Below, in pieces: positions 3,955 to 45,837 of a stretch of 64,000 nt of DNA. Source of the stretch: Moritella sp. 24. Lineage in GTDB: Bacteria; Pseudomonadota; Gammaproteobacteria; Enterobacterales; Moritellaceae. Both the position numbers and the translations under genes were made by a program. Below the pieces are notes generated by a model, which worked only from the letters and a program-made list of their open reading frames with translations, was not told the origin of the DNA and ran no database searches. The stretch lies in the NCBI RefSeq assembly GCF_018219155.1, contig NZ_CP056123.1, forward strand, positions 992,001 to 1,056,000, read 5' to 3'. How positions within the stretch are numbered: position 1 is the first letter of the stretch; the number at the start of each line of letters is the position of its first letter.

Positions 3955-4479
3955 ATGGACTTAATTGCGTCTAAAAGGAGTGGTGGTTTTACACTTATTG
4001 AGCTAGTGATCACGATTATTGTTCTGGGTGTACTTGCTGCCACAGCGATCCCACAGTTTATTAATTTAAAGGGGGATGCTAAAAAATCAGCGGTAGAAAA
4101 TTTTCACGGTAGCCTTCAGGAAACCGTGAGATTGCTGCATATGAAAGCGCAAATTGAGAATATACTCGGTGATGATGTCACGATCACCACGGATTATGGT
4201 GATTATCAATTCTACCGCGGGTATCCTGAAACAAGAAGTGAAGCGACAAGTCCAAGTGCCTACTTTATTGAAACTTTTTTAGCGTTAGGCATACCTGATT
4301 TAGATATTAGAACAAGTACATCAAGAATTGCGACTTATGCCAATGTGAGTGTTTATGAAGACAATGACTTCTCGCGTATTGGTTATGGGACTGGCAATTT
4401 ACTAAGTGATCTGTGCTATGCAGAATACAACCACACAAGTTCAACGCAAACATTTACTGTGAAAACGGATGGCTGCTAA
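3955..4479 (+). CDS. Type IV pilin / pseudopilin-like protein
   Basis: The protein has a class III leader: a short basic N-terminus (MDLIASKRSGG) followed by the cleavage site and hydrophobic helix GFTLIELVITIIVLGVLAA. PilD-type peptidase would cut after Gly, leaving N-methyl-Phe. The mature protein is about 160 residues and ends with a two-Cys C-terminal region (DLCYAEYN...KTDGC), a typical disulfide-bounded D-region. It resembles MSHA-type minor pilins or type II secretion pseudopilins, but no assembly gene is nearby, so it is an orphan. The ATG at 3955 is preferred over an upstream TTG at 3943 because GAGAG lies just before it. Confidence 0.75.
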   Translation: MDLIASKRSGGFTLIELVITIIVLGVLAATAIPQFINLKGDAKKSAVENFHGSLQETVRLLHMKAQIENILGDDVTITTDYGDYQFYRGYPETRSEATSPSAYFIETFLALGIPDLDIRTSTSRIATYANVSVYEDNDFSRIGYGTGNLLSDLCYAEYNHTSSTQTFTVKTDGC

Positions 4480-4505
4480 TTTTTGATTCAACGGATAGTC
4501 ATTGC

Positions 4506-4546
4506 AAGCAATCGGGGTCGTTAACGACTTAGCCCCCTGATTGCTT
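4506..4546 (+). terminator. Hairpin after the pilin gene
   Basis: An imperfect inverted repeat AAGCAATC-GGGG ... CCCCC-TGATTGCTT with a loop that itself contains the palindrome TCGTTAACGA. A strong U tract is lacking, so termination efficiency is uncertain. Confidence 0.45.
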
Positions 4547-4621
4547 ACATTGTTAGAAATGAAAGGTTATGCAGTGAAAGGGTATGCGTGAAATAGTCAC
4601 CTAAGATGAATTACTTTTTCT

Positions 4622-5872
4622 CTAGTTCGGCTGTGCATTAAGTCTATTATTCGACATATTGATTGGTGGCGTGATGATCGCTGTTCTACCTGCCAGCATA
4701 GCGAAACTTGCCCATATAATACTGATACCAGCGGTGATAATTAAGGGTATATTCCAGCTGCCAGTTGCTTCATGTAATGAACCAAAAAGAAGTGGGCCAC
4801 TGGCCGCGAATAGATAGCCCATACACTGTGCCATACCCGATAAAGCTGCGGCTTGGTGAGCATTGTGTGTACGTAACCCCACAAAAGACAAGCCTAGAAT
4901 AAAGCCACCACCACAGCTGAAACCTAATAAGCCCACCCAGAGTACTGCGTATTGTGGCAACGTGAGAAGACCTGTAATCCCCACGAGTGCAAGCAGTGTC
5001 ATGGCTAAACTCAAACCGCGTTTATCTTTCATTTTCCCCATTAGCGGTATTAAAATAATCGCGGGTGCCGCAGAAGCAAGTTGTAAGATCCCGTGGATGT
5101 AACCAGCTTGATGATTTGAGTAGCCGTTATCAACCAAGATACTCGGTAACCAGGCGATGAATGAATACATGATAAAAGAATTAAGAGCGAGAAAACCTGT
5201 AACTTGCCAAGCTGTGATTGAACGCCATAAATAACTATGGCTGTCTATTTCAGCGGTATCGGCGGTTGGCTTTGTATGACGTTTCATTTGTGGTAACCAA
5301 ACCAGCATGGTGATTATCGGCAGTACTATTGTCCCCGCGAGTGCAAACGCCCAATTTGGTATCACTAGCACGTTAAACGTGTCGGCCGCATTAAGTAGCG
5401 GAATTGTCGTGCTTGCGCTAATTGTTGCGCCGATCCCCATGATTAATACATAAATAGCCGTCAACGTAGGCACTTTTTTTGGAAAATCACGTTTTAGCAA
5501 GCTAGGTAGAAGTACGTTGCCAATCGCAATGCCGACACCAATGATACAGGTACCTAAAAACAAGGTGACAGTTGAGCCAGCTGAGCGAATAACAATACCA
5601 CTGGTGATAGCAACAAGTGCTAGCATTAATGATGGTTCGAGTCCTATTTTTCGTGCTAATCCTGATGATAGCGGTGAAAAAAGAGCAAATGCCAGTAAAG
5701 GTAAGGTAGTGAGCATGCCAGCCTGAGTGGCTGATAAAGCAAGATCGTGAGAGATAAATTCTAAAATAGGTCCGATACCAGTGATTGGTCCTCGTAAGTT
5801 ACTGGCGATGAGTAAAATACTCATAATGACCAGTACGGGGTGCACGATATTTGGTTTGTTGTTATGTGGCAT
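4622..5872 (-). CDS. MFS exporter of the CynX/NimT family
   Basis: A major facilitator protein of 416 residues with 12 predicted helices. The N-terminus reads SNLRGPITGIGPIL, the signature of the cyanate/nitroimidazole (CP) subfamily that includes E. coli CynX and NimT. The start ATG at 5872 is preceded by AGAGGA; an upstream in-frame TTG is rejected. It is transcribed divergently from an AraC-type gene at 5965. In E. coli the same pairing (nimR/nimT) controls 2-nitroimidazole export, and I infer a similar self-contained drug-export module here. Substrate is unknown. Confidence 0.75.
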   Translation of the reverse strand: MPHNNKPNIVHPVLVIMSILLIASNLRGPITGIGPILEFISHDLALSATQAGMLTTLPLLAFALFSPLSSGLARKIGLEPSLMLALVAITSGIVIRSAGSTVTLFLGTCIIGVGIAIGNVLLPSLLKRDFPKKVPTLTAIYVLIMGIGATISASTTIPLLNAADTFNVLVIPNWAFALAGTIVLPIITMLVWLPQMKRHTKPTADTAEIDSHSYLWRSITAWQVTGFLALNSFIMYSFIAWLPSILVDNGYSNHQAGYIHGILQLASAAPAIILIPLMGKMKDKRGLSLAMTLLALVGITGLLTLPQYAVLWVGLLGFSCGGGFILGLSFVGLRTHNAHQAAALSGMAQCMGYLFAASGPLLFGSLHEATGSWNIPLIITAGISIIWASFAMLAGRTAIITPPINMSNNRLNAQPN

Positions 5873-5964
5873 ATTTGTGTCCTCTTGAAGCAATTCCTCA
5901 TATTACCCATATCGAACAATTCTGAATTTATGTATATTGACATTTTATTGCTAAAAACAGCCAT

Positions 5965-6753
5965 ATGATGGAATTAGACAACGACACTACGCATTTTGAT
6001 TCAGACAGATATATTGAAAAGGTAAATGCACTGCGAACAACGGGGCTTGAAAGGGATCATGAAATGCCTGTGCATCAGCATGTAAAGTGCCAGCTCGTTA
6101 TGCCTCTCAGTGGCTACGTTCGCTGTACTATTGCTGATGCAATATGGATGGTGCCTGCGAATTGTGCCGTGTGGATCCCGAGTCAAGTGCCACACAGCAA
6201 TCACATTTCTATTTGTGATGATGTGTGTATGTTATTTGTTGATCCAAGCGTATTGGGGATCCCTGATAAAATAAGTACTTTGTCTGTGTCGCCTTTATTA
6301 CGTGAGTTAATTATTAGCTTGGCGAGTAAAAACCAACACTATGCATCTGATGAAAGTGCTGTCAGATTAGCGCAAGTATTGATTGATGAACTTATTTGTA
6401 TGCCTAAAGAACACTTCGATTTTCCGATACCTGTAGAGCCAAGGCTTAATAAAATAGCCAATCAGTTATTAGATAACCCTGCCGATCGTAAAACAGTGGG
6501 GGAGTGGGCGTCGTTACTTGCAATGAGTGAAAGAACATTTTCTCGACTCGTGAAGCAAGAAACTGGAATGACGTTTGGCCGTTGGCGTGGACAACTGCAT
6601 TTAGTGATGGCATTACAAAAATTGTCATCGAACGAATCGGTGCAACGTGTATCAGAAGATTTAGGGTATGAGTCTGTGAGTGCGTTTATTACGTTTTTTA
6701 AGAAGACATTAGGCCGTCCCCCGAAGCAATATATGAAGCAGTCGCGAGATTAA
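5965..6753 (+). CDS. AraC-family regulator, NimR-like
   Basis: 262 residues. The N-terminal part is a cupin sensor domain with an HxH motif (PVHQHVKCQLVMPLSG), and the C-terminal 90 residues form the double HTH (ASLLAMSERTFSRLVKQETG and QRVSEDLGYESVSAFITFFK). NimR of E. coli has this length and order. It is divergent from the NimT-like exporter, with only 92 bp between the two starts, so both promoters must overlap and the protein most likely controls the exporter and itself. The inducer is unknown. Confidence 0.8.
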   Translation: MMELDNDTTHFDSDRYIEKVNALRTTGLERDHEMPVHQHVKCQLVMPLSGYVRCTIADAIWMVPANCAVWIPSQVPHSNHISICDDVCMLFVDPSVLGIPDKISTLSVSPLLRELIISLASKNQHYASDESAVRLAQVLIDELICMPKEHFDFPIPVEPRLNKIANQLLDNPADRKTVGEWASLLAMSERTFSRLVKQETGMTFGRWRGQLHLVMALQKLSSNESVQRVSEDLGYESVSAFITFFKKTLGRPPKQYMKQSRD

Positions 6754-6755
6754 GT

Positions 6756-6797
6756 GGGTGCTCACTCTTATGAGCACCCTCGTTTAACCTTTATTTT
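6756..6797 (+). terminator. Rho-independent terminator after the AraC gene
   Basis: A perfect 9-bp stem GGGTGCTCA / TGAGCACCC with a 6-nt loop (6756-6779), followed by a T-rich stretch ending TTATTTTT. Confidence 0.7.
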
Positions 6798-6862
6798 TAA
6801 AAGACTAAATTAATCGTTAATGGCACTATTTTTTAAAGACTAAGTTAACCGTTAATGGCACT
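6793..6862. repeat. 35-bp tandem duplication at the 3' end of the YceI gene
   Basis: Two adjacent 35-bp copies (6793-6827 and 6828-6862) differ at three positions. The copy inside the gene encodes the last residues VPLTVNLVFKK and the stop. The outer copy, read in its own frame, would encode VPLTINLVF and then stop. It is a duplicated gene end left behind after tandem duplication. Confidence 0.8.
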
Positions 6863-7389
6863 TTGTCAGACAGTGCTAAACCACCTACGGTTGCAGCTAG
6901 ATTAGCAATATTTTCGGCTGGAATGCCAAAATCACTGGCTTGAACAATAACGGGTGTATGCGAACTCACTGTTATTGCATTTTTTGTTTTAGTCACAATA
7001 ACCGGGAAGTTAAATGTTTTTGAGTTACCATGAAAAGACACGGCCGCAGGTACGGTTACTTTTGTAATATCCTGTTTTAATCCTGACAAATCAAACTGTC
7101 CTGTAATGTTGACAGTTGGGTAATATGCGGCATTAAAGAATAATCCACTAACTCGATCATCCCTGATTGATACACCTGTATTAATGTTACCCACAGGTAC
7201 TGATACATTAAATTTACCACTGCTATCGAGATTACCCGTTAGTCCATTAATTGCTGCAGGTTCTACCACAAATTGTTTTTTGATAGTGGCGAAACTGACA
7301 GATGAAAATTCAGACGCAACAGTAAAAGTGTCTGCGGCAAACGATTGAAATGAGAGCAGTACCAGCGATAAAAATATTTTAGTTTTCAT
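6826..7389 (-). CDS. YceI-family periplasmic lipid-binding protein
   Basis: 187 residues with a clear signal peptide (MKTKIFLSLVLLSFQSFA / ADTF). The mature part has the YceI features: an early beta strand ending SSVSFATIKKQF, then INTGVSIRDDRVSGLFF, AYYPTVNITG, and the closing strand VPLTVNLVFKK. YceI proteins form an extended lipocalin-like barrel that binds polyisoprenoids such as ubiquinone-8. A role in isoprenoid quinone handling or alkaline/osmotic response is inferred from the family. The small exported protein at 7415 lies 25 bp upstream on the same strand, so the two probably share a transcript. Confidence 0.8.
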   Translation of the reverse strand: MKTKIFLSLVLLSFQSFAADTFTVASEFSSVSFATIKKQFVVEPAAINGLTGNLDSSGKFNVSVPVGNINTGVSIRDDRVSGLFFNAAYYPTVNITGQFDLSGLKQDITKVTVPAAVSFHGNSKTFNFPVIVTKTKNAITVSSHTPVIVQASDFGIPAENIANLAATVGGLALSDKVPLTVNLVFKK

Positions 7390-7414
7390 GTTTATTTTCC
7401 TTAATTAACGTTGT

Positions 7415-7786
7415 TTAAAACTTAAAGTTGTATCCGGGTTGCACAATGAAGGGGGCTCTGAAGTTATCAGCCATGAAATAATAGATTTCCTGTTCTTCAT
7501 CGTTGACTATCTTGTAGCAATTCCATCCACTACCAAAATCGGAACAATATTTATTCGCTTCGACTTTCCATTGGCCTTCTGATGGTAGTTCATCCCCCTC
7601 AGCTTGCCATAGTGTGAGCCCTGATTTTGAAAAATATTGTACGGTCTTTTTTTTGTGGTGAACGCCGACAAGTGTATTTCCATTGACTAACTGCTTGATT
7701 TCAGCTGTCTTTAATTCTACTTCTGCTGCTGTAACCGTGAATACTGATACCGAGAAAATAATGCTAATTATTGGTAAAACTTTCAT
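7415..7786 (-). CDS. Small exported protein of unknown function
   Basis: A protein of 123 residues with a signal peptide (MKVLPIISIIFSVSVFTVTAA). The start at 7786 has AAGGGG six bases upstream; an earlier in-frame TTG is rejected. The mature part is a small beta-rich domain with a pattern NGNTLVG, then GQWKVEANKYCSDFGSGW, then CYKIV, so two cysteines could form a disulfide. The layout recalls small secreted DUF995-like proteins, but that is a weak match by eye. It sits just upstream of the YceI gene and may be co-transcribed with it. Confidence 0.6.
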   Translation of the reverse strand: MKVLPIISIIFSVSVFTVTAAEVELKTAEIKQLVNGNTLVGVHHKKKTVQYFSKSGLTLWQAEGDELPSEGQWKVEANKYCSDFGSGWNCYKIVNDEEQEIYYFMADNFRAPFIVQPGYNFKF

Positions 7787-7925
7787 ATAAAACCCCTTGT
7801 AACTCAATGGTTAATTTGTTTTATCAATAATATCGCGCTTAATTAAATTGTATTCCTCACGTGTTTATCACATATTTATTACGATTTTAGAATAAGGGAT
7901 ATTTTCATGACTGACCATGACTAAT

Positions 7926-35764: not shown

Positions 35765-36886
35765 ATGTTAACACTCCGTGCTTCTTATCTTATTTATAAT
35801 AATCAACCGTTCCACTATTTTTGGTTGAAAGACAATTGCCGTTGCGGTGAATGTTTACACGCATCAGGACAACGATTACAAGAGGTCCTCGATTTGGACT
35901 TAGCGATCAAACCTGAAGTCGTGAAACTTGAAGAAGGGAACATCATCATCACTTGGCAAGATGGGCATCATAGTCATTACAGCCAAGACTTTTTAGACAG
36001 TATGCGAGACACTGACTGTGTGGCTGATACGGATAGTGTGACTGACACGGATAGGGTAACTCGTTGGGGGGCAGATCTTGATGCCGCTAACATTACGTTT
36101 AATTATCCAGCGGTGAAAAATCAGGATCGTGTTAAACGAGCTTGGTTAGGTGCGATCAATCAATTTGGTTTGGCATTTTTACAAGATGTACCAAATATCA
36201 GTGAGCAGCTATTTGAAGTAGTTGCACAATTTGGTTTTGTGCGCGAAACCAATTATGGCAGTCATTTTGAGGTGATTTCGGAAGAGAATCCGGTTAATTT
36301 AGCTTACACCCCTAAGCCGCTCAGTCTGCATACCGACAATGCTTACCGCCATCCGGTACCCACATTACAGTTATTACATTGTTTAGTCAGTGCTGAAAAA
36401 GGCGGGATAACCGCATTAACAGATGGATTTTATGCTGCACAATTATTGCAACAACGTTTTCCTGAACAATATCAATTATTGACCTCGACACCTGTCACTT
36501 ACCGCTTTAAGAATGAGGATACTCATCTTGAACATACCGGCTACATTATTGAATTAGAGAACAATGGTGAACTGGCTCGCATTCGCTTAAACAATCGATC
36601 TATTCAAGCAATTAAATTACCGTTTGCAGAGATGGCTGCATTTTATGAAGCGTATCAAAATTTCAGCCGTATTTTACACAGTGAAGAGTGTAAGTTTTTG
36701 TGTACCTTGCAACCGGGTGAATTAATGATTTTTAATAATGAACGTATTTTACACGGTCGAGAAGTTGCCGCAGAAGGTGCACGCCATTTACAAGGTTGTT
36801 ATGCCGATATTGATTCATTAAAAAGTACCTTAGCCGTACTCGAGACTAAGTTAGGAATGACATTAGCGGATCAGGTGGAGAAATAG
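35765..36886 (+). CDS. tmpA: TmpA-like 2-trimethylaminoethylphosphonate dioxygenase
   Basis: 373 residues of the gamma-butyrobetaine hydroxylase-like Fe(II)/2-oxoglutarate family. The N-terminal zinc domain shows WLKDNCRCGECLH. The iron ligands are H and D in SLHTDNAYRHPVPTLQLLH and the distal His in ERILHGRE, and the 2-oxoglutarate Arg is in GARHLQGCY. TmpA hydroxylates 2-trimethylaminoethylphosphonate at C1, and TmpB cleaves the product to glycine betaine and phosphate. The adjacent tmpB and phosphonate-binding protein genes support this over carnitine synthesis. A threefold 18-bp repeat expands the linker near residues 82-99. Confidence 0.8.
   Translation: MLTLRASYLIYNNQPFHYFWLKDNCRCGECLHASGQRLQEVLDLDLAIKPEVVKLEEGNIIITWQDGHHSHYSQDFLDSMRDTDCVADTDSVTDTDRVTRWGADLDAANITFNYPAVKNQDRVKRAWLGAINQFGLAFLQDVPNISEQLFEVVAQFGFVRETNYGSHFEVISEENPVNLAYTPKPLSLHTDNAYRHPVPTLQLLHCLVSAEKGGITALTDGFYAAQLLQQRFPEQYQLLTSTPVTYRFKNEDTHLEHTGYIIELENNGELARIRLNNRSIQAIKLPFAEMAAFYEAYQNFSRILHSEECKFLCTLQPGELMIFNNERILHGREVAAEGARHLQGCYADIDSLKSTLAVLETKLGMTLADQVEK
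36008..36061 (+). repeat. Three-unit 18-bp repeat inside tmpA
   Basis: Three imperfect in-frame 18-bp units encode DTDCVA, DTDSVT and DTDRVT. They lie between the N-terminal zinc domain and the catalytic domain, so the linker length may vary between strains. Confidence 0.85.
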
Positions 36887-36888
36887 AA

Positions 36889-37428
36889 ATGGATATTATT
36901 CAATTTATTAAACAGCAATTTGAAGAAAACGGTCACGTGGCTTACGGTGAGCATATTTCGATGGGTGAGCATATGTTGCAATCAGCCTACTATGCGGAGC
37001 AAAAAAAGAGTAATGATGCGATTATTACCGCTGCGTTACTACATGATTTTGGCCATTTGATTTTAGAACTACCGGAAGATATTACCGCGAATGGTATTGA
37101 TGGTTATCATGAAGATATTGGGGCGAAGTTCTTAGCCCCTTATTTTCCAAAGCAGATTATTGATGGCATTGCATTACATGTGCAAGCCAAGCGTTATCTG
37201 TGTGCGATTAAACCGAATTATCATGGACAATTGAGTCAAGCATCGCAAGAGACACTGACAGTACAAGGAGGGCCGATGAATACGCAACAAGTTGCAGATT
37301 TTGAACAAGAACCTTTTTATAAAGATGCGTTGCAAGTCCGTCTGTTTGATGATCTCGGTAAACATACTGAGTTAGATCACCCTGATTTAGATTATTACTT
37401 ACGTATTGCTACGCAGTTTGTTTTATAA
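36889..37428 (+). CDS. tmpB: TmpB-like HD-domain oxygenase (PhnZ family)
   Basis: 179 residues. This is a mixed-valence di-iron HD oxygenase of the PhnZ/TmpB type. Metal ligands are readable as His28, His52-Asp53, His56, His74, His97 and an Asp in RLFDDLGK (154/155). Tyr19 and Glu21 correspond to the gating pair of PhnZ, and TLTVQGGPM is the family signature. The enzyme cleaves 1-hydroxy-2-trimethylaminoethylphosphonate to glycine betaine and phosphate. It starts 2 bp after tmpA and is translationally coupled. Products would feed osmoprotection and phosphate supply. Confidence 0.85.
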   Translation: MDIIQFIKQQFEENGHVAYGEHISMGEHMLQSAYYAEQKKSNDAIITAALLHDFGHLILELPEDITANGIDGYHEDIGAKFLAPYFPKQIIDGIALHVQAKRYLCAIKPNYHGQLSQASQETLTVQGGPMNTQQVADFEQEPFYKDALQVRLFDDLGKHTELDHPDLDYYLRIATQFVL

Positions 37429-37594: not shown

Positions 37595-39481
37595 ATGACG
37601 TTGAAATATAGAATCCTAGTTTTTTTCGCTTCTTTAGTTATTACTATTTGTGGTGCTATTACCTTTTTTGGCTATAGCGCATTCGATAGTTTTAGTAACC
37701 GTAATTATGAAGATAAAATGGATAGCCAGTCGCAGTTAATCGCGAAAGCATTAGATGAAAAATTAATGCGCTATTTCGATGCTCTGAATGCTGTTTCTTT
37801 TGAATTTGGTGACAATGGTGAGCCATTATCGGTAGATCGTGCGGTAGCGAAAACCCGCCATTTTATTAACAGTATCGATGGTATTGAAAATATATTTATT
37901 GGCTTAAAAGACGGACGTGCAATTGAAGGCGGAGGTTATGTTGCTAATTTCAATGCGAAAGATCTTAACCGTGAATGGTATAGCCGTATTTTCTATGACA
38001 ACGAAAAAATAATTATCACTAAGGCTTATCAAAACGCCCTAACCAAAAAAAATATTATCTCTTTGGTTGTGCCTATTTATCATAATAATCAAACCGTCGC
38101 AGCGTTGTCGATTGATATCGAGTTAGGCAATATTACCCGCTTTATTACCTCGCTAACCAGCGCTAATCACATTTTTGTTTATCGCGATGACGGCTATATT
38201 ATGTCGAGCAAAGATACTGCGTTGTTGGGCAAAAATATGTTTCAAGTACGCCCGCAGTATGAGCAAGTGAATAATGGTATTAGTCGTTTTAAGTATGACG
38301 TTAACGGTGAAACTGTATCTGTAGTAACAAATAAGCTGTCGGTACGTGATTGGATCGTCGCTAGTTATGAATATGAGAAAGACATTAATGCAGCAAGCAA
38401 TGCGAACCTGATTGGCTCATTAGTATTTTTAGCAATTGCCATTATTGTTGCGATTATCATTTTTTACTTCTTTATCGTGAAATATATCTACGCACCAATC
38501 GGTGGTGAACCGGAAGATATTTCTAACTTAATGGAAAAAATGGCGCGTGGTGATTTGAGTGCTGTGAGCACTACGGGTCAAGAGACGACTGGTATTTATG
38601 CTAGCATGTTAATTTTGCTACATGAGTTACAAGATGTGGTGCAAAAAACCCATGCGATCTCTGATAATGTGTCATCTGCATCAGTAGAACTTGCGGCTGT
38701 GATGGGTGAGGCTGCGACTAATTCTCAACATGAAATTGCACAAATAGAACAAGTAGCAACAGCGGTAAATGAATTATCAAGTACAGCGGCGGAAGTGAGT
38801 TTAAATGCCAGCAATGCTGAGGATGCTGCCAACAATGCCATCGACAGTGTGAGTCGTGGTAATGATGCGTTGCAAGAGTCGGATGCGATCACCAAACGAA
38901 TTGAAACATCGGTGCAAGAGTCAACCTTAATGGTTAATCAGTTAAGAGCATATTCGATTGAAATTGGTAGCGTTGTTGATGTGATTAATACTATTTCTCA
39001 GCAAACTAATCTATTAGCCTTGAATGCGGCGATTGAAGCTGCACGAGCTGGTGAGCAAGGGCGTGGTTTTGCTGTTGTTGCGGATGAAGTGCGCGCATTA
39101 GCGGCTAAAACGCAGGAATCGACGGTTAATATTCAGGAAATCATTACGAAACTGCAAGAGCAATCTGAAAAAGCAGACAGCTATATGAACAGTAACGTTG
39201 AACTTATTCAGGGTTCACGCGAGATTGCGCAAACAGTAAGTCATTGCTTTACGGATATCTCTCATTCCGTGTCTTTAATTTCAGACATGAATACATTGGT
39301 ATCGACAGCCTCTCACGAACAATCTGCAGTGACCCAAGATATTGCCGCAAATGTGATGCAAGCGTCAGATATGGTTACGCAAAATGTCGCGGGTATTGAC
39401 CAAAGTAATCAAGCCAGTGAAGAACTTGCTCGATTATCGGAAGAGCAAAAAACGATATTAAACTTCTTTAAGTTAAGTTAA
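37595..39481 (+). CDS. Methyl-accepting chemotaxis protein with dCache sensor
   Basis: 628 residues. Helix 1 (about 5-28), a periplasmic dCache_1 domain (about 35-275) and helix 2 (about 275-298) are followed by a HAMP region ([23 protein letters not shown]) and the MA domain with the CheA-contact hairpin tip ([20 protein letters not shown]). The sensor contains REWY at 126-129 and YQN at 145-147; dCache receptors for amino acids have R-x-WY and a downstream Asp, replaced here by Asn. A ligand related to betaine or phosphonates is possible because the gene follows tmpB, but this is inference. The 3' end runs into an AGTTA repeat. Confidence 0.9.
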
Positions 39482-39501: not shown

Positions 39502-39575
39502 AAAGCCTCCGCCTGTTTATATAAGTCCTTGAAGAAGAACTCGAATAAACAAAGGCGGAGGCTTTCTTATTTTTA
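39502..39575. terminator. Bidirectional terminator
   Basis: A long stem AAAGCCTCCGCCT...TTTAT (39502-39520) with ATAAA...AGGCGGAGGCTTT (39545-39565), flanked by CTTATTTTTA on the plus side. It serves the chemoreceptor and the convergent aminotransferase-like gene. Confidence 0.85.
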
Positions 39576-39599: not shown

Positions 39600-40721
39600 C
39601 TATTCATTGATATAAACCGTGTTAATCACTTCGATTAATTGCATTATTTCTATCCGGTCATTATAAATATGCGGTGATATACGCATGCCTTGCTGACGAT
39701 TATCAATACTGATGCTATGTGCTGATAATGCGGATAACACAGCCTCTTGTTGTGAGCCAAAGTGCAAGATAGCGGTGCCATTACGTTGCGCCTCCTGCTG
39801 TGGTGAGACAAGTGCTTGAGGAAAAGCGTCGGCTAACATAGCTAACAATATTTGATTATGTTGACGCAGTTTTTCAATACCAATTCTTACAAAATATTCA
39901 ATGCTATTCGCTGAAATAACATAGGGCATGATAGACGGTGTCCCTCCCCAAAATCGCAACGCCCCTTGATGGTTTTCAAAATGATGAATATTGAATTCAA
40001 ACGGCTGTTGATGTGAAAACCACCCAACATCTTTGGGCTGACAATGTTTGAGTTGATCTGGATTAACCCATAAGTAGCTGCTTCCTGGGCCGCCACATAA
40101 CCATTTAACACAAGATCCAATCATAAAGTCTGGTCGTGTAGTGCTTAGATCGAGTGGAATAATGCCAGCAGACTGAGCAACGTCAACGATAGACAATACG
40201 TGATGCTCACGGGCAAGGGCGAGTATATCTTTAACTGGCGCTTGCTGACCGGTATTAGAATAGGCGTGACTGATAAAGACTAAATCAATGCTGGTATTAA
40301 GGTATTTAGCCCAAATAGTGGGGTCGGTTATATCAAGGCTATTAGGGATGTAGGTAATATTGGCTGTATTGGCGATTGCGCGTTGCATAACAAATCCCAT
40401 ACTGGGAAAATCACTTTCACTCATTAATATTTTGGTGTGTGGTTGCTGTAAACGATCGACCGACATTAATACCTTTGTTAATGCGCTAGAGAGGTTAACT
40501 TGTGGGCAAAAATGATTTGCATCGTCATTAAAGAGCGACCCCAAGGCAATCTGATAGCGTTCTATTGCGCTGATCCACTGTGGCCAAGGTTCGCTGCTTG
40601 CATCTTGCCAATGATCGAGAAAGTGTGTTTTAAATTGTTGCTCGGTATTTTTTAGTGGACGCCCAACCGAGTGATTCAATAAATAAATATTATCGTTAAG
40701 TAAAAAATCTTTTTTATACAT
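39600..40721 (-). CDS. Kynureninase-like class V PLP enzyme
   Basis: 373 residues. It starts with YLLNHSVGRPL, has the PLP-binding Asp180 in IVDVAQSAGIIPLDL and the Schiff-base Lys206 in IGSCVKWLCGGPGSSYLWV. The GGPG string after the lysine and KDVGWFSHQQPFEF are typical of kynureninase, as are FWGGTPSIMPY and MRISPHIYN. Kynureninase cleaves the side chain of kynurenines to anthranilates and alanine. Some conserved kynureninase residues differ (for example Cys in place of Ser/Thr near the lysine), so the substrate may not be kynurenine itself. It lies 24 bp downstream of the PrnB-like gene with a good AAGGA site, so the two form an operon. Confidence 0.75.
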   Translation of the reverse strand: MYKKDFLLNDNIYLLNHSVGRPLKNTEQQFKTHFLDHWQDASSEPWPQWISAIERYQIALGSLFNDDANHFCPQVNLSSALTKVLMSVDRLQQPHTKILMSESDFPSMGFVMQRAIANTANITYIPNSLDITDPTIWAKYLNTSIDLVFISHAYSNTGQQAPVKDILALAREHHVLSIVDVAQSAGIIPLDLSTTRPDFMIGSCVKWLCGGPGSSYLWVNPDQLKHCQPKDVGWFSHQQPFEFNIHHFENHQGALRFWGGTPSIMPYVISANSIEYFVRIGIEKLRQHNQILLAMLADAFPQALVSPQQEAQRNGTAILHFGSQQEAVLSALSAHSISIDNRQQGMRISPHIYNDRIEIMQLIEVINTVYINE

Positions 40722-40745
40722 AACCGTTCCTTGTTTTATTGTCGC

Positions 40746-41924
40746 TTAATTTAATGTTTCGTGCAGGGTTAGGATGTCGTGATGGCGCGTTGCGATATCA
40801 TCACGTTGGTTGCCGACTCGAAGATCTCTCAGTTTTTCTAATGAGCGCAGTAGGATGTGTAGCGGGGGGCCACTGGCTGTTAATTTATCCATGTGCTGAG
40901 ATTGAATATGGCTAGCGGGTTGTGTGATGTATTTATTAACCAGTTGATCATGATGTTGGTTCGCGGTGGCGCCATGCAGTTTACAAACCTCTAAAAACAA
41001 GGCTAAATTACGTTGATACCACATTTGGTTTTTATGTTGTCGTTGATTAAGAAAATCATCCATCAAGTTTGTTTTTTGCATCGCATCACGTAATAGCAGC
41101 TGATCTTCAGGCATCATATAAGTGAATTTATCTACGAGCATTTGTGAGTAGAAAGGTTCATTGGCGCGGCATAGCCCTAGCAGCATATCGACAATGTTGA
41201 TCCCTGCAAAATCACCCGCATTTGCACCACGATAAATCTGCGACCCGACACGGTAAGATTTGTAATAAGGACGCACACAATGGAAGAAACGGTCGGTGTC
41301 GAGCTCGCTGAATAAGATATTATTTGATTCGATAACGTCATTAAGCGACTGCTTTGCGGTGAGCAACAAATCGTAACAAAGTGGGTGGGAGATACCCATC
41401 GCATAGATTTTTGTTAATGCTTCGGCCGCCCGCTTAAATGCCAAAATACTGCGTGTGTTGTAATCGATAAATAAAGTTTCATCATGTAGGGTGGTGAAGC
41501 ATTTGTAAGTACCATTAACAGCAATATTATGTGTGGTTAGGTGAGCAGTGGAAAATCGAGGAGCCATACCAATGGTTGGGCCGATATGCATCGCGAGTGC
41601 TGATGCTTCGATAAGTGGTGAACGCGTTTCTCGCGAGGGCTCTGTGAGGTCGTGACGGCGACATGCCGCCATATATAACCCTACGCTGCCGAGTAAATTA
41701 AATGCACGATTAAAGTCTTGGCTGGTGTTCCCTTCTGCAAGCAAGACTTTAATTAGCGACCGCCCTTCTGATTCAAGTTGGTGTTTTAATGATTTACCAA
41801 TACCGGCCACGTTATCTCTGTCTTCCTGTTGCCAGTATAACGCTTCTAACGCGGTGTTAATCTCGACAAAAGGACCTCTAATCCACTGATCAAATGCATG
41901 GGTTGCGTGACTCGTGTTTTTCAT
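40746..41924 (-). CDS. PrnB-family haem enzyme (IDO/TDO superfamily)
   Basis: 392 residues. It resembles monodechloroaminopyrrolnitrile synthase PrnB, a haem protein related to indoleamine and tryptophan dioxygenases. RPYYKSYRVGSQIYRGANAG aligns by eye with the PrnB segment [20 protein letters not shown], and HNIAVNGTYKCFTTLHDE with its counterpart containing YTGLPDEAH. The proximal haem ligand His313 of PrnB aligns best with His324 (or His325). It is longer than PrnB (361) and no pyrrolnitrile genes (prnA, prnC, prnD) are present. With the kynureninase-like gene it suggests opening of an indole ring followed by side-chain cleavage; this is inference. No formamidase gene is adjacent. Confidence 0.75.
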   Translation of the reverse strand: MKNTSHATHAFDQWIRGPFVEINTALEALYWQQEDRDNVAGIGKSLKHQLESEGRSLIKVLLAEGNTSQDFNRAFNLLGSVGLYMAACRRHDLTEPSRETRSPLIEASALAMHIGPTIGMAPRFSTAHLTTHNIAVNGTYKCFTTLHDETLFIDYNTRSILAFKRAAEALTKIYAMGISHPLCYDLLLTAKQSLNDVIESNNILFSELDTDRFFHCVRPYYKSYRVGSQIYRGANAGDFAGINIVDMLLGLCRANEPFYSQMLVDKFTYMMPEDQLLLRDAMQKTNLMDDFLNQRQHKNQMWYQRNLALFLEVCKLHGATANQHHDQLVNKYITQPASHIQSQHMDKLTASGPPLHILLRSLEKLRDLRVGNQRDDIATRHHDILTLHETLN

Positions 41925-42138
41925 TGTATTACCTCTTGGTTATGAATATTCGATATAAATATTAACGCATTAGGTATACGGAGTAGGTGTGTTTAAAACA
42001 TGAGCGTTTTATTGAAATAGATTTAACTTTAATCATTCATAAGTTATATAGTTGTTTATTGTTGTTTTGTTGAGGTAGCTATAATTTGATTAAATCACGA
42101 GACAATGTCGACTAGACTGAGCGTTAGTATGTTATAGA

Positions 42139-44662: not shown

Positions 44663-44769
44663 AAGTGAGATTACCTGTTCAATTAAATCGTTATTATGGA
44701 GGTAAGTAAATAGCTACAGCCCCGAATTATTTCGTTTCGGCGGTAACATGTCACAAGGTGGGTAAAAGT

Positions 44770-45837
44770 ATGGCTTTATTAACAAAAAAATCATTGGTTA
44801 ATGCTGCAATAGGTGCTGCATTATTCACGTCTGCAATCTCTGCTGTTCAAGCGTGTTCACGATTAATTTGGGAGACAGAAGACTACGGTGTGTTTGTGTC
44901 TCGTACCATGGATTGGATGGTTGAAACCCACCCTACGATTGACGTTCGAGCGAAAGGCATCAGCTATCGTGGTGCGGAATCGGGAGAAAAGGTGATGATG
45001 TGGACATCGAAATACGCATCGATCTTGACGACTTTCTATGGCAAAGCGGGTATTGATGGTTTCAATGAAGCTGGCCTTGCAGCCAATGCGCTATACTTAG
45101 GTGAAGAAAGTAGCGGGGAGTATAATGCAGATAAAGTACAGCTAGAAAACTCTCGCGTGATACCGTATTTCTTAGATAATTTTAGCTCGGTAAAAGAGGC
45201 CTTAATTGGCTTGGAAGATATTCAATTACAGTTGTTTTCACATGACGGTAGTATTCTAACTGGGCACTATTCATTACAAGATGCGAGCGGTGATTCTGCA
45301 ATTTTAGAGTTCATCGATGGTAAGTGGAAGATTTACCATGGTGAACAATATAACGTACTGACCAATAGCCCTGAGTTTCATGAACACTTGAATAACTGGG
45401 AAGCAAAAAAACCGACGCAGCAATCACAATTCTCAAGTGAATATCCTTTGGATGGTAATGTTGGCCCTGTAGAACGTTTTGTGTGGAATAAGTATATGTT
45501 AGCGCAACTGCAAGAGCCGAGTAGTGTGATTAATGGTTTAGCAAAATTGGATAGCTCGACTTATAAAGTGCCATTAGATGCGGCTAATCGAGTCGTGGCT
45601 GGCAAGATGACGGGCTATGCGACACAATATACGCTTACTTATAATTTAGAGCAGAAAGAGCTGAATATGCGTTATCAATACGGTGATGTGTACACACAGT
45701 TTAAAGTTGATTTTAATAAATTAAATGACGGTAAAAATTACACGTTAAAAGCCGATGAGCAACATAATGTTGGTGATATGACGAGTAAGTTCGAACAGAA
45801 AAACGGTGTAATGGCACAATATCGAGTGAATAAATAA
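44770..45837 (+). CDS. Choloylglycine hydrolase-family amidase (penicillin V acylase / bile salt hydrolase type)
   Basis: 355 residues from ATG 44770 (AGGTGGG upstream). A signal peptide ends VQA, exposing an N-terminal catalytic Cys in CSRLIWETEDYG. Other family residues: R and D in VSRTMDW, N in GLAANALYLG, N in LTNSPEFHEH and R in GPVERFVWNKY. Members hydrolyse linear amides such as conjugated bile salts, penicillin V or acyl-homoserine lactones. Gram-negative exported members often act on acyl-homoserine lactones, making quorum quenching a plausible role here (inference). It is divergent from a LysR gene and shares its operator. Confidence 0.85.
   Translation: MALLTKKSLVNAAIGAALFTSAISAVQACSRLIWETEDYGVFVSRTMDWMVETHPTIDVRAKGISYRGAESGEKVMMWTSKYASILTTFYGKAGIDGFNEAGLAANALYLGEESSGEYNADKVQLENSRVIPYFLDNFSSVKEALIGLEDIQLQLFSHDGSILTGHYSLQDASGDSAILEFIDGKWKIYHGEQYNVLTNSPEFHEHLNNWEAKKPTQQSQFSSEYPLDGNVGPVERFVWNKYMLAQLQEPSSVINGLAKLDSSTYKVPLDAANRVVAGKMTGYATQYTLTYNLEQKELNMRYQYGDVYTQFKVDFNKLNDGKNYTLKADEQHNVGDMTSKFEQKNGVMAQYRVNK

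Follow-up and report, generated by a model that had tools for sequence, protein, structure and literature searches.

A PrnB-family haem enzyme and a kynureninase-like PLP enzyme of Moritella sp. 24 as a conserved pair and a probable tryptophan-degrading unit

The DNA analyzed here, which we call the window, is a 64,000-nt stretch of the Moritella sp. 24 genome (contig NZ_CP056123.1, positions 992,001 to 1,056,000), and our subject is a pair of adjacent genes within it, one encoding a PrnB-family protein (the haem enzyme) and the other a pyridoxal 5′-phosphate-dependent protein (the PLP enzyme; Table 1). A first-pass annotation made from the letters of this DNA had described a two-gene unit of PrnB-like and kynureninase-like proteins, and we found that its coordinates hold, with the genes 24 bp apart in an arrangement that is conserved among relatives. 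The short spacing, together with an AAGGA-like stretch in the gap, is consistent with the two genes being carried on one transcript. Beyond what the annotation had proposed, we found that a relative of tryptophan 2,3-dioxygenase (TDO) fills the place of the haem enzyme in sister operons. We consider the pair most likely to be a compact tryptophan-degrading unit, in which a replaced dioxygenase would act together with an unusual PLP lyase.

The haem enzyme matched PF08933 (PrnB) over its full length (residues 6–391; 617 bits against a cut-off of 27, E = 1.2e-185), and it aligned with SO4414 of Shewanella oneidensis in the PDB over residues 1–391 (E ~6e-175, ~64% identity), of which it is, by this alignment, an orthologue. 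Among the named loci the nearest relative was that of Moritella dasanensis, at 84% identity. SO4414 is represented by PDB entries 1zee and 2nwb and is titled a putative 2,3-dioxygenase; the title of 2nwb also gives ferric haem, and by analogy the window protein would be expected to bind haem. Our literature search, whose scope did not extend to PNAS 2007, Biochemistry 2007 and JBC 2010 papers, found no activity or pathway for SO4414. Both profile and structure comparison bore out the proposed kinship to indoleamine 2,3-dioxygenase (IDO) and TDO, in that an IDO-type fold with a conserved axial histidine places the protein in the superfamily of His-ligated haem-dependent aromatic oxygenases (IDO/TDO/PrnB). 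By fold, IDO1/IDO2 and PrnB tied as its closest matches; sequence similarity to IDO was near the detection limit. With PrnB of pyrrolnitrin biosynthesis the haem enzyme shares the Pfam family, the IDO fold, and the RPF/RPY and Gly-loop motifs; it differs in having a PLP partner. We rejected the possibility that it is PrnB proper, given an identity of 14–17% and no prnACD-type genes among the five neighbors scanned. As the annotation had stated, a halogenase, a formamidase and other genes of pyrrolnitrin formation are missing here; a profile scan of these five neighboring proteins found none, the chemoreceptor-like open reading frame (ORF) at 37595–39481 being judged by reading only.

The PLP enzyme scored 91.9 bits against Aminotran_5 in Pfam (cut-off 21.5) and 22.2 bits, under the cut-off of 27, against KYNU_C. 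Its best NCBIfam model was kynureninase TIGR01814, at 95.2 bits against an equivalog cut-off of 246.4, compared with 320.6 bits for a true kynureninase of the same order, and its best sequence match in the PDB was the kynureninase of Pseudomonas fluorescens. Structure comparison also gave kynureninase the best Z, in a tie with desulfurases and C-DES, and because of this tie we dropped any verdict based on fold only. The fold is nonetheless kynureninase-like. Relative to the P. fluorescens enzyme, Tyr226, His204, Asp132 and Thr97 are all replaced. The Tyr226 position is Val in 76 of 77 clade members and Ile in one (L023 reads Leu), the His204 position is Gln in 77/77, and the Asp132 position is Met in 11 of 12 and Leu in one, while all three kynureninase residues are present in 5/5 aligned kynureninases. 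Retained from kynureninase (KynU) are the context of the PLP lysine, several substrate-side residues and the GGPG stretch, with Ser36, Trp64, Phe129, Trp256, His259, Gly281 and Thr282 all conserved. When 25 further loci were compared, 15 had a YK motif and 9 gave no pattern match; L191, a member of the PLP clade, had VK. By its residues the enzyme does not qualify as a kynureninase, and it falls into a separate clade in the tree. In one genome (G038; L023/L126) the PLP gene seemed to contain an in-frame stop, which turned out to be the normal C-terminal stop. Relatives from outside the order (L192, L193, L194) scored 147–160 bits and, by reading of the stretches seen, were not beside a TDO or PrnB gene. 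Two further PLP enzymes of class V (L222:6860–8065 and L223:6506–7627), which carry HS[VI]G and LKWLCG motifs, stand beside this clade in the tree (98/91); by reading, they lie beside aminotransferase-like and transport-like ORFs, with no TDO or PrnB gene.

We then considered how far the two genes travel together, as the annotation had suggested surveying. Among the named loci (the best 80 of 362 relatives found), haem and PLP genes were adjacent in 79 by tblastn, and in a second genome set, whose loci overlap the named ones in part, they were adjacent in 23 of 25; the pairing is not due to chance. The named loci came from Shewanella, Pseudoalteromonas, Paraglaciecola, Thalassotalea, Moritella, Colwellia, Simiduia, Vibrio, Veronia and a few metagenome-assembled genomes (MAGs). 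In the family of the window's genome (11 genomes, one genus), PF08933 was present in 5. Across 398 sampled genomes of the phylum it exceeded the cut-off in 6, of which 5 belonged to this order, and the family is thus mostly confined to it. We dropped one marginal match, in G484, that reached 20 bits over 53 positions and contained two stops. The commonest neighbor of the pair was a divergent, upstream Lrp/AsnC gene, found at 62 of the 80 named loci, and the next commonest occurred at 26. This gene is missing from L027 as well as from the window, where we found no Lrp relative beyond a chance-level match (E = 0.19) in a search that covered the window and not the rest of its genome. Neither biosynthetic genes nor a hydrolase recurred around the cassette in the 80 loci. 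With this distribution of neighbors, the earlier suggestion of a signal, siderophore or antibiotic found no support, nor did a role like that in pyrrolnitrin formation; the pair and its recurrent regulator look like a catabolic unit. One named locus, on a Glaciecola MAG contig (L042:8007–9182), carried a PrnB-like gene with neither a PLP partner nor an Lrp gene; ORFs of sugar-acid type, by reading, lie beside it at 4058–7865, and the gene is perhaps a solitary copy or an artifact of assembly. The most distant PrnB-like relative found (L146:6083–7252, in G718; 51–52% identity) had no PLP partner within 13.5 kb, and a PF00756 esterase gene lies ~1 kb upstream of it.

The distribution of haem partners within the order (Enterobacterales; 394 genomes sampled) carries most of our interpretation. 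PF08933 occurred in 24 of these genomes and the TDO family PF03301 in 75, with an overlap of 0. The PLP clade, delimited by scores above 200 bits (the next match down scored 95), was present in 31 genomes, in 24 of them alongside PF08933 and in 7 alongside PF03301; no genome had both or neither. We draw no evidence from chance values for this co-occurrence, since they take no account of how closely the genomes are related. The PF03301 proteins of those seven genomes are short and divergent, with open frames of 246–277 amino acids, and in five of the seven (G291, G311, G280, G271, G262) the gene is the immediate upstream neighbor of the PLP gene, where the PrnB-like gene would be. Pfam confirmed PF03301 in these five proteins at 87–106 bits, and an Lrp/AsnC protein is encoded beside the TDO-like gene at four of the five loci (L137, L138, L140 and L144; none at L139). 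In G281 and G374, both of genus g51, the TDO-like gene lies away from the PLP gene, beside what we read as an Lrp-like ORF and a serA-like gene. A further genome of that genus, G095, has the same gene order at this site minus the TDO-like and Lrp-like ORFs, with a 161-aa ORF whose GreA/GreB match is below cut-off. G095 carries a PrnB-like gene elsewhere and has kept, in a similar neighborhood, a PLP gene that shares 78% identity with its G281 counterpart. PLP genes whose partner is PrnB-like grouped together in the tree (95/71) and next joined the TDO-partnered G280 (98/91), and the PLP gene of G095 fell inside the TDO-partnered group. Two replacements of a TDO-like by a PrnB-like gene would explain both the tree and G095, if the root lies towards kynureninase. 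That the haem enzymes are interchangeable is well supported by gene content, and it is mainly because of this swap that we assign both of them one job. A short TDO-like protein also overlaps a class V PLP enzyme with a GGMMKYLFG motif at L229:6627–8476 (G257:C14); it recalls the same pairing in a different, biosynthetic-looking setting, with a second TDO-like protein, an FAD monooxygenase, a class IV aminotransferase, a PF04199 cyclase and a MutE/B12-binding pair.

We also examined the other enzymes of the kynurenine pathway. Neither the KynB-type formamidase family PF04199 nor TDO (PF03301) was found in the whole genome to which the window belongs. PF04199 was present in two of the 31 PLP-clade genomes (G135, G262) and so absent from 29, in agreement with the annotated picture of a short two-step unit of haem and PLP enzymes without KynB; it was also present in G718, and in four of five genomes taken as having a true kynureninase (read in G214, G391, G039 and G037, and not read in G282). 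TIGR03035 matched none of the 25 genomes with a PrnB-like gene, yet PF04199 matched two of those 25 (G135 and G718). The 3-hydroxyanthranilate dioxygenase family PF06052 had no match in five genomes, controls included, and was hence uninformative. True kynureninases of the order were adjoined by a BD-FAE alpha/beta hydrolase, a candidate formamidase, at six of the eight loci read. Some of the BD-FAE hydrolases beside true kynureninases (L216, L217, L219, L147–L149) begin, by reading, with a signal-peptide-like stretch, and these are perhaps exported formamidases. A true kynureninase and a member of the PLP clade occurred together in four of the 31 genomes (G095, G262, G281, G311), which suggests separate tasks for the two PLP enzymes. 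In these genomes the sole PF03301 or PF08933 protein could be what makes N-formylkynurenine (NFK) for the true kynureninase, which fits dioxygenation.

From these observations we tentatively read the cassette as an L-tryptophan catabolic unit, in which TDO gives way to the haem enzyme and the oxidized product is cleaved by the PLP enzyme with no formamidase involved. The SO4414-type haem enzyme, like the short TDO-like protein of the sister operons, would open the indole ring oxidatively, most likely giving NFK, and the VKW-clade PLP enzyme would then cut the Cβ–Cγ bond of the still formylated product to give L-alanine and N-formylanthranilate, so that no KynB would be needed. The Lrp/AsnC neighbor would regulate the cassette. 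The folds, the orthology to SO4414, the linkage, the swap, the separate PLP clade and the absence of KynB-type PF04199 are computational results; we infer that tryptophan is the substrate and NFK the product, that the formylated product is used directly, and that the regulator acts on the pair. The result would be a route parallel to the kynurenine pathway, involving neither formamidase nor kynurenine, in which two distantly related haem enzymes stand in for each other and a new PLP activity, without the catalytic residues of kynureninase, cleaves a formylated (or mono-oxygenated) amino acid; we regard this as possible, if short of probable. The findings point to an undescribed, formamidase-free breakdown of tryptophan, and a literature search that did not take in key 2007 papers found no published description of the haem–PLP unit. 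A close parallel is the kynRABU regulon of Pseudomonas aeruginosa, which likewise joins an Lrp/AsnC regulator, a tryptophan-opening haem enzyme and a PLP enzyme (PMC12451312), KynR being of the Lrp/AsnC class according to a reference title in PMC4349456. For the regulators the likeness is one of class, and kynRABU differs in having TDO, a KynB formamidase and a true kynureninase.

Several points weigh against this proposal. In TDO and IDO the substrate amine is contacted by a Thr in the GTGG[ST] loop; neither haem partner has this Thr, and the loop has been linked to monooxygenation in MarE. The haem enzyme contains no GTGG, the aligned stretch being SGPP (alignment shifts of one residue are possible), and the TDO-like proteins read SLKGR where TDO has GTGGS. 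Profile and Foldseek comparisons placed the haem enzyme somewhat closer to PrnB than to IDO, and the oxy intermediate of PrnB was reported as inactive towards tryptophan (PMC11791213). A haem gene without an adjacent PLP gene occurred in G718, G095 and L042. The absence of formamidase covers the KynB type only, other families not having been searched genome-wide. With a true kynureninase in four genomes, kynurenine cleavage need not fall to the PLP protein, and the loss of Tyr226, His204 and Asp132 argues against plain kynureninase chemistry.

The loop and the PrnB intermediate would suit monooxygenation, in which, as in MarE, the haem enzyme adds one oxygen to give 2-oxindolylalanine or a C3-hydroxylated, cyclized tryptophan; the PLP enzyme would then be a β-lyase like C-DES or cysteine desulfurase that releases oxindole, pyruvate and ammonia. 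The TDO-like partners share an SLxGR-type loop with MarE, a 2-oxindole-forming TDO relative, and like it lack an insert of canonical TDO. However, their profile scored 110 bits against Xanthomonas TDO and only 41 against MarE, and all five upstream proteins match canonical TDO in the alignment at both of its histidines and at its Arg, Tyr and SG positions, residues that line the TDO pocket. Human TDO converted to an SLGGS loop was still found to turn L-Trp into NFK at ~95%, and dioxygenation was the preferred reaction of MarE when ascorbate was left out (PMC12312684). Because of the score, the SLGGS variant and the behavior of MarE, we hold NFK to be the likelier product, and monooxygenation to be unlikely, though it deserves serious weight.

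The unit could instead be the kynurenine pathway in disguise, with NFK from the haem enzyme passing through an unlinked formamidase of another family to kynurenine, which a divergent kynureninase, the PLP enzyme, would split into anthranilate and alanine. The kynureninase matches by PDB sequence and by (tied) Z, the residues kept from kynureninase, and the BD-FAE hydrolases as candidate non-KynB formamidases of the order all speak for this, but in all rows examined the catalytic-site residues have been replaced, hydrolases do not recur next to the cassette, and a true kynureninase coexists with the PLP enzyme in four genomes. We judge it rather unlikely.

Another aromatic substrate (a hydroxylated or methylated tryptophan, or an indole acid), or a PLP enzyme that acts as an aminotransferase or racemase on an oxidized amino acid, is improbable: in other settings, haem enzymes of this superfamily act as Tyr and Trp hydroxylases (PMC11791213, PMC12921851), and the PLP fold is common to aminotransferases, but the swap partners are TDO-like proteins that keep aligned TDO pocket residues. 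A PrnB-like rearrangement that yields a product of the aminophenylpyrrole type, for use in making a signal, siderophore or antibiotic, is very improbable, as PF08933 membership and the slight lead of PrnB over IDO are set against low identity to PrnB, the lack of recurring biosynthetic genes and the swap with a TDO relative.

If the proposed tryptophan unit is correct, it would represent a natural replacement of a relative of tryptophan dioxygenase by an IDO/PrnB-fold enzyme and a PLP carbon–carbon lyase with a different catalytic site, and it would help in asking what sets mono- versus dioxygenation in the superfamily. Structures of SO4414 were released in 2005 and 2006, and the partner gene, the TDO swap and the missing KynB would give it a concrete role in tryptophan breakdown. 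The genera concerned, among them Shewanella, Pseudoalteromonas, Moritella, Paraglaciecola and Thalassotalea, are common marine ones.

Table 1. Features of the haem–PLP locus in the window and predicted functional residues of its two proteins.
Feature	Position	Strand	Basis
PrnB-family (SO4414-type) haem enzyme, 392 aa	40746..41924	-	Pfam and PDB sequence match
PLP enzyme, fold type I, aminotransferase class V, VKW clade, 373 aa	39600..40721	-	Pfam and residue alignment
24-bp gap between haem and PLP genes, with AAGGA-like ribosome-binding stretch	40722..40745	-	Read from sequence
Intergenic region facing divergent GGDEF gene; presumed promoter region	41925..42138	.	ORF layout and sequence reading
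Inverted repeat AAGCCTCCGCC ... GGCGGAGGCTTT between convergent chemoreceptor-like gene and PLP gene	39503..39565	.	Read from sequence
Haem enzyme, putative haem axial ligand	His325		Inferred
Haem enzyme, putative substrate-pocket residues	Phe213, Phe214, Arg218		Inferred
Haem enzyme, GANAG loop	residues 233–237		
Haem enzyme, TASGPP loop	residues 349–354		
PLP enzyme, PLP lysine	K206		
PLP enzyme, substitutions relative to P. fluorescens kynureninase	V205 for Tyr226, Q183 for His204, M108 for Asp132		

A promoter scan of the intergenic region upstream of the haem gene gave 11 promoter-like matches, near the expectation from shuffled sequences (8.4, sd 3.3). The inverted repeat downstream of the PLP gene is perhaps a two-way terminator; a terminator scan limited to loops of 3–8 bases did not report it. 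Elsewhere in the window, a plus-strand pair at 35765–37428 encodes a 2-oxoglutarate dioxygenase and an HD-domain oxygenase close to TmpA/TmpB of phosphonate breakdown; both are below the NCBIfam cut-offs (364.9 against 400 bits and 195.3 against 300 bits), and another substrate is possible. A choloylglycine hydrolase family protein (CBAH, 112.8 bits) is encoded on the plus strand at 44758–45837, next to a divergent LysR regulator.
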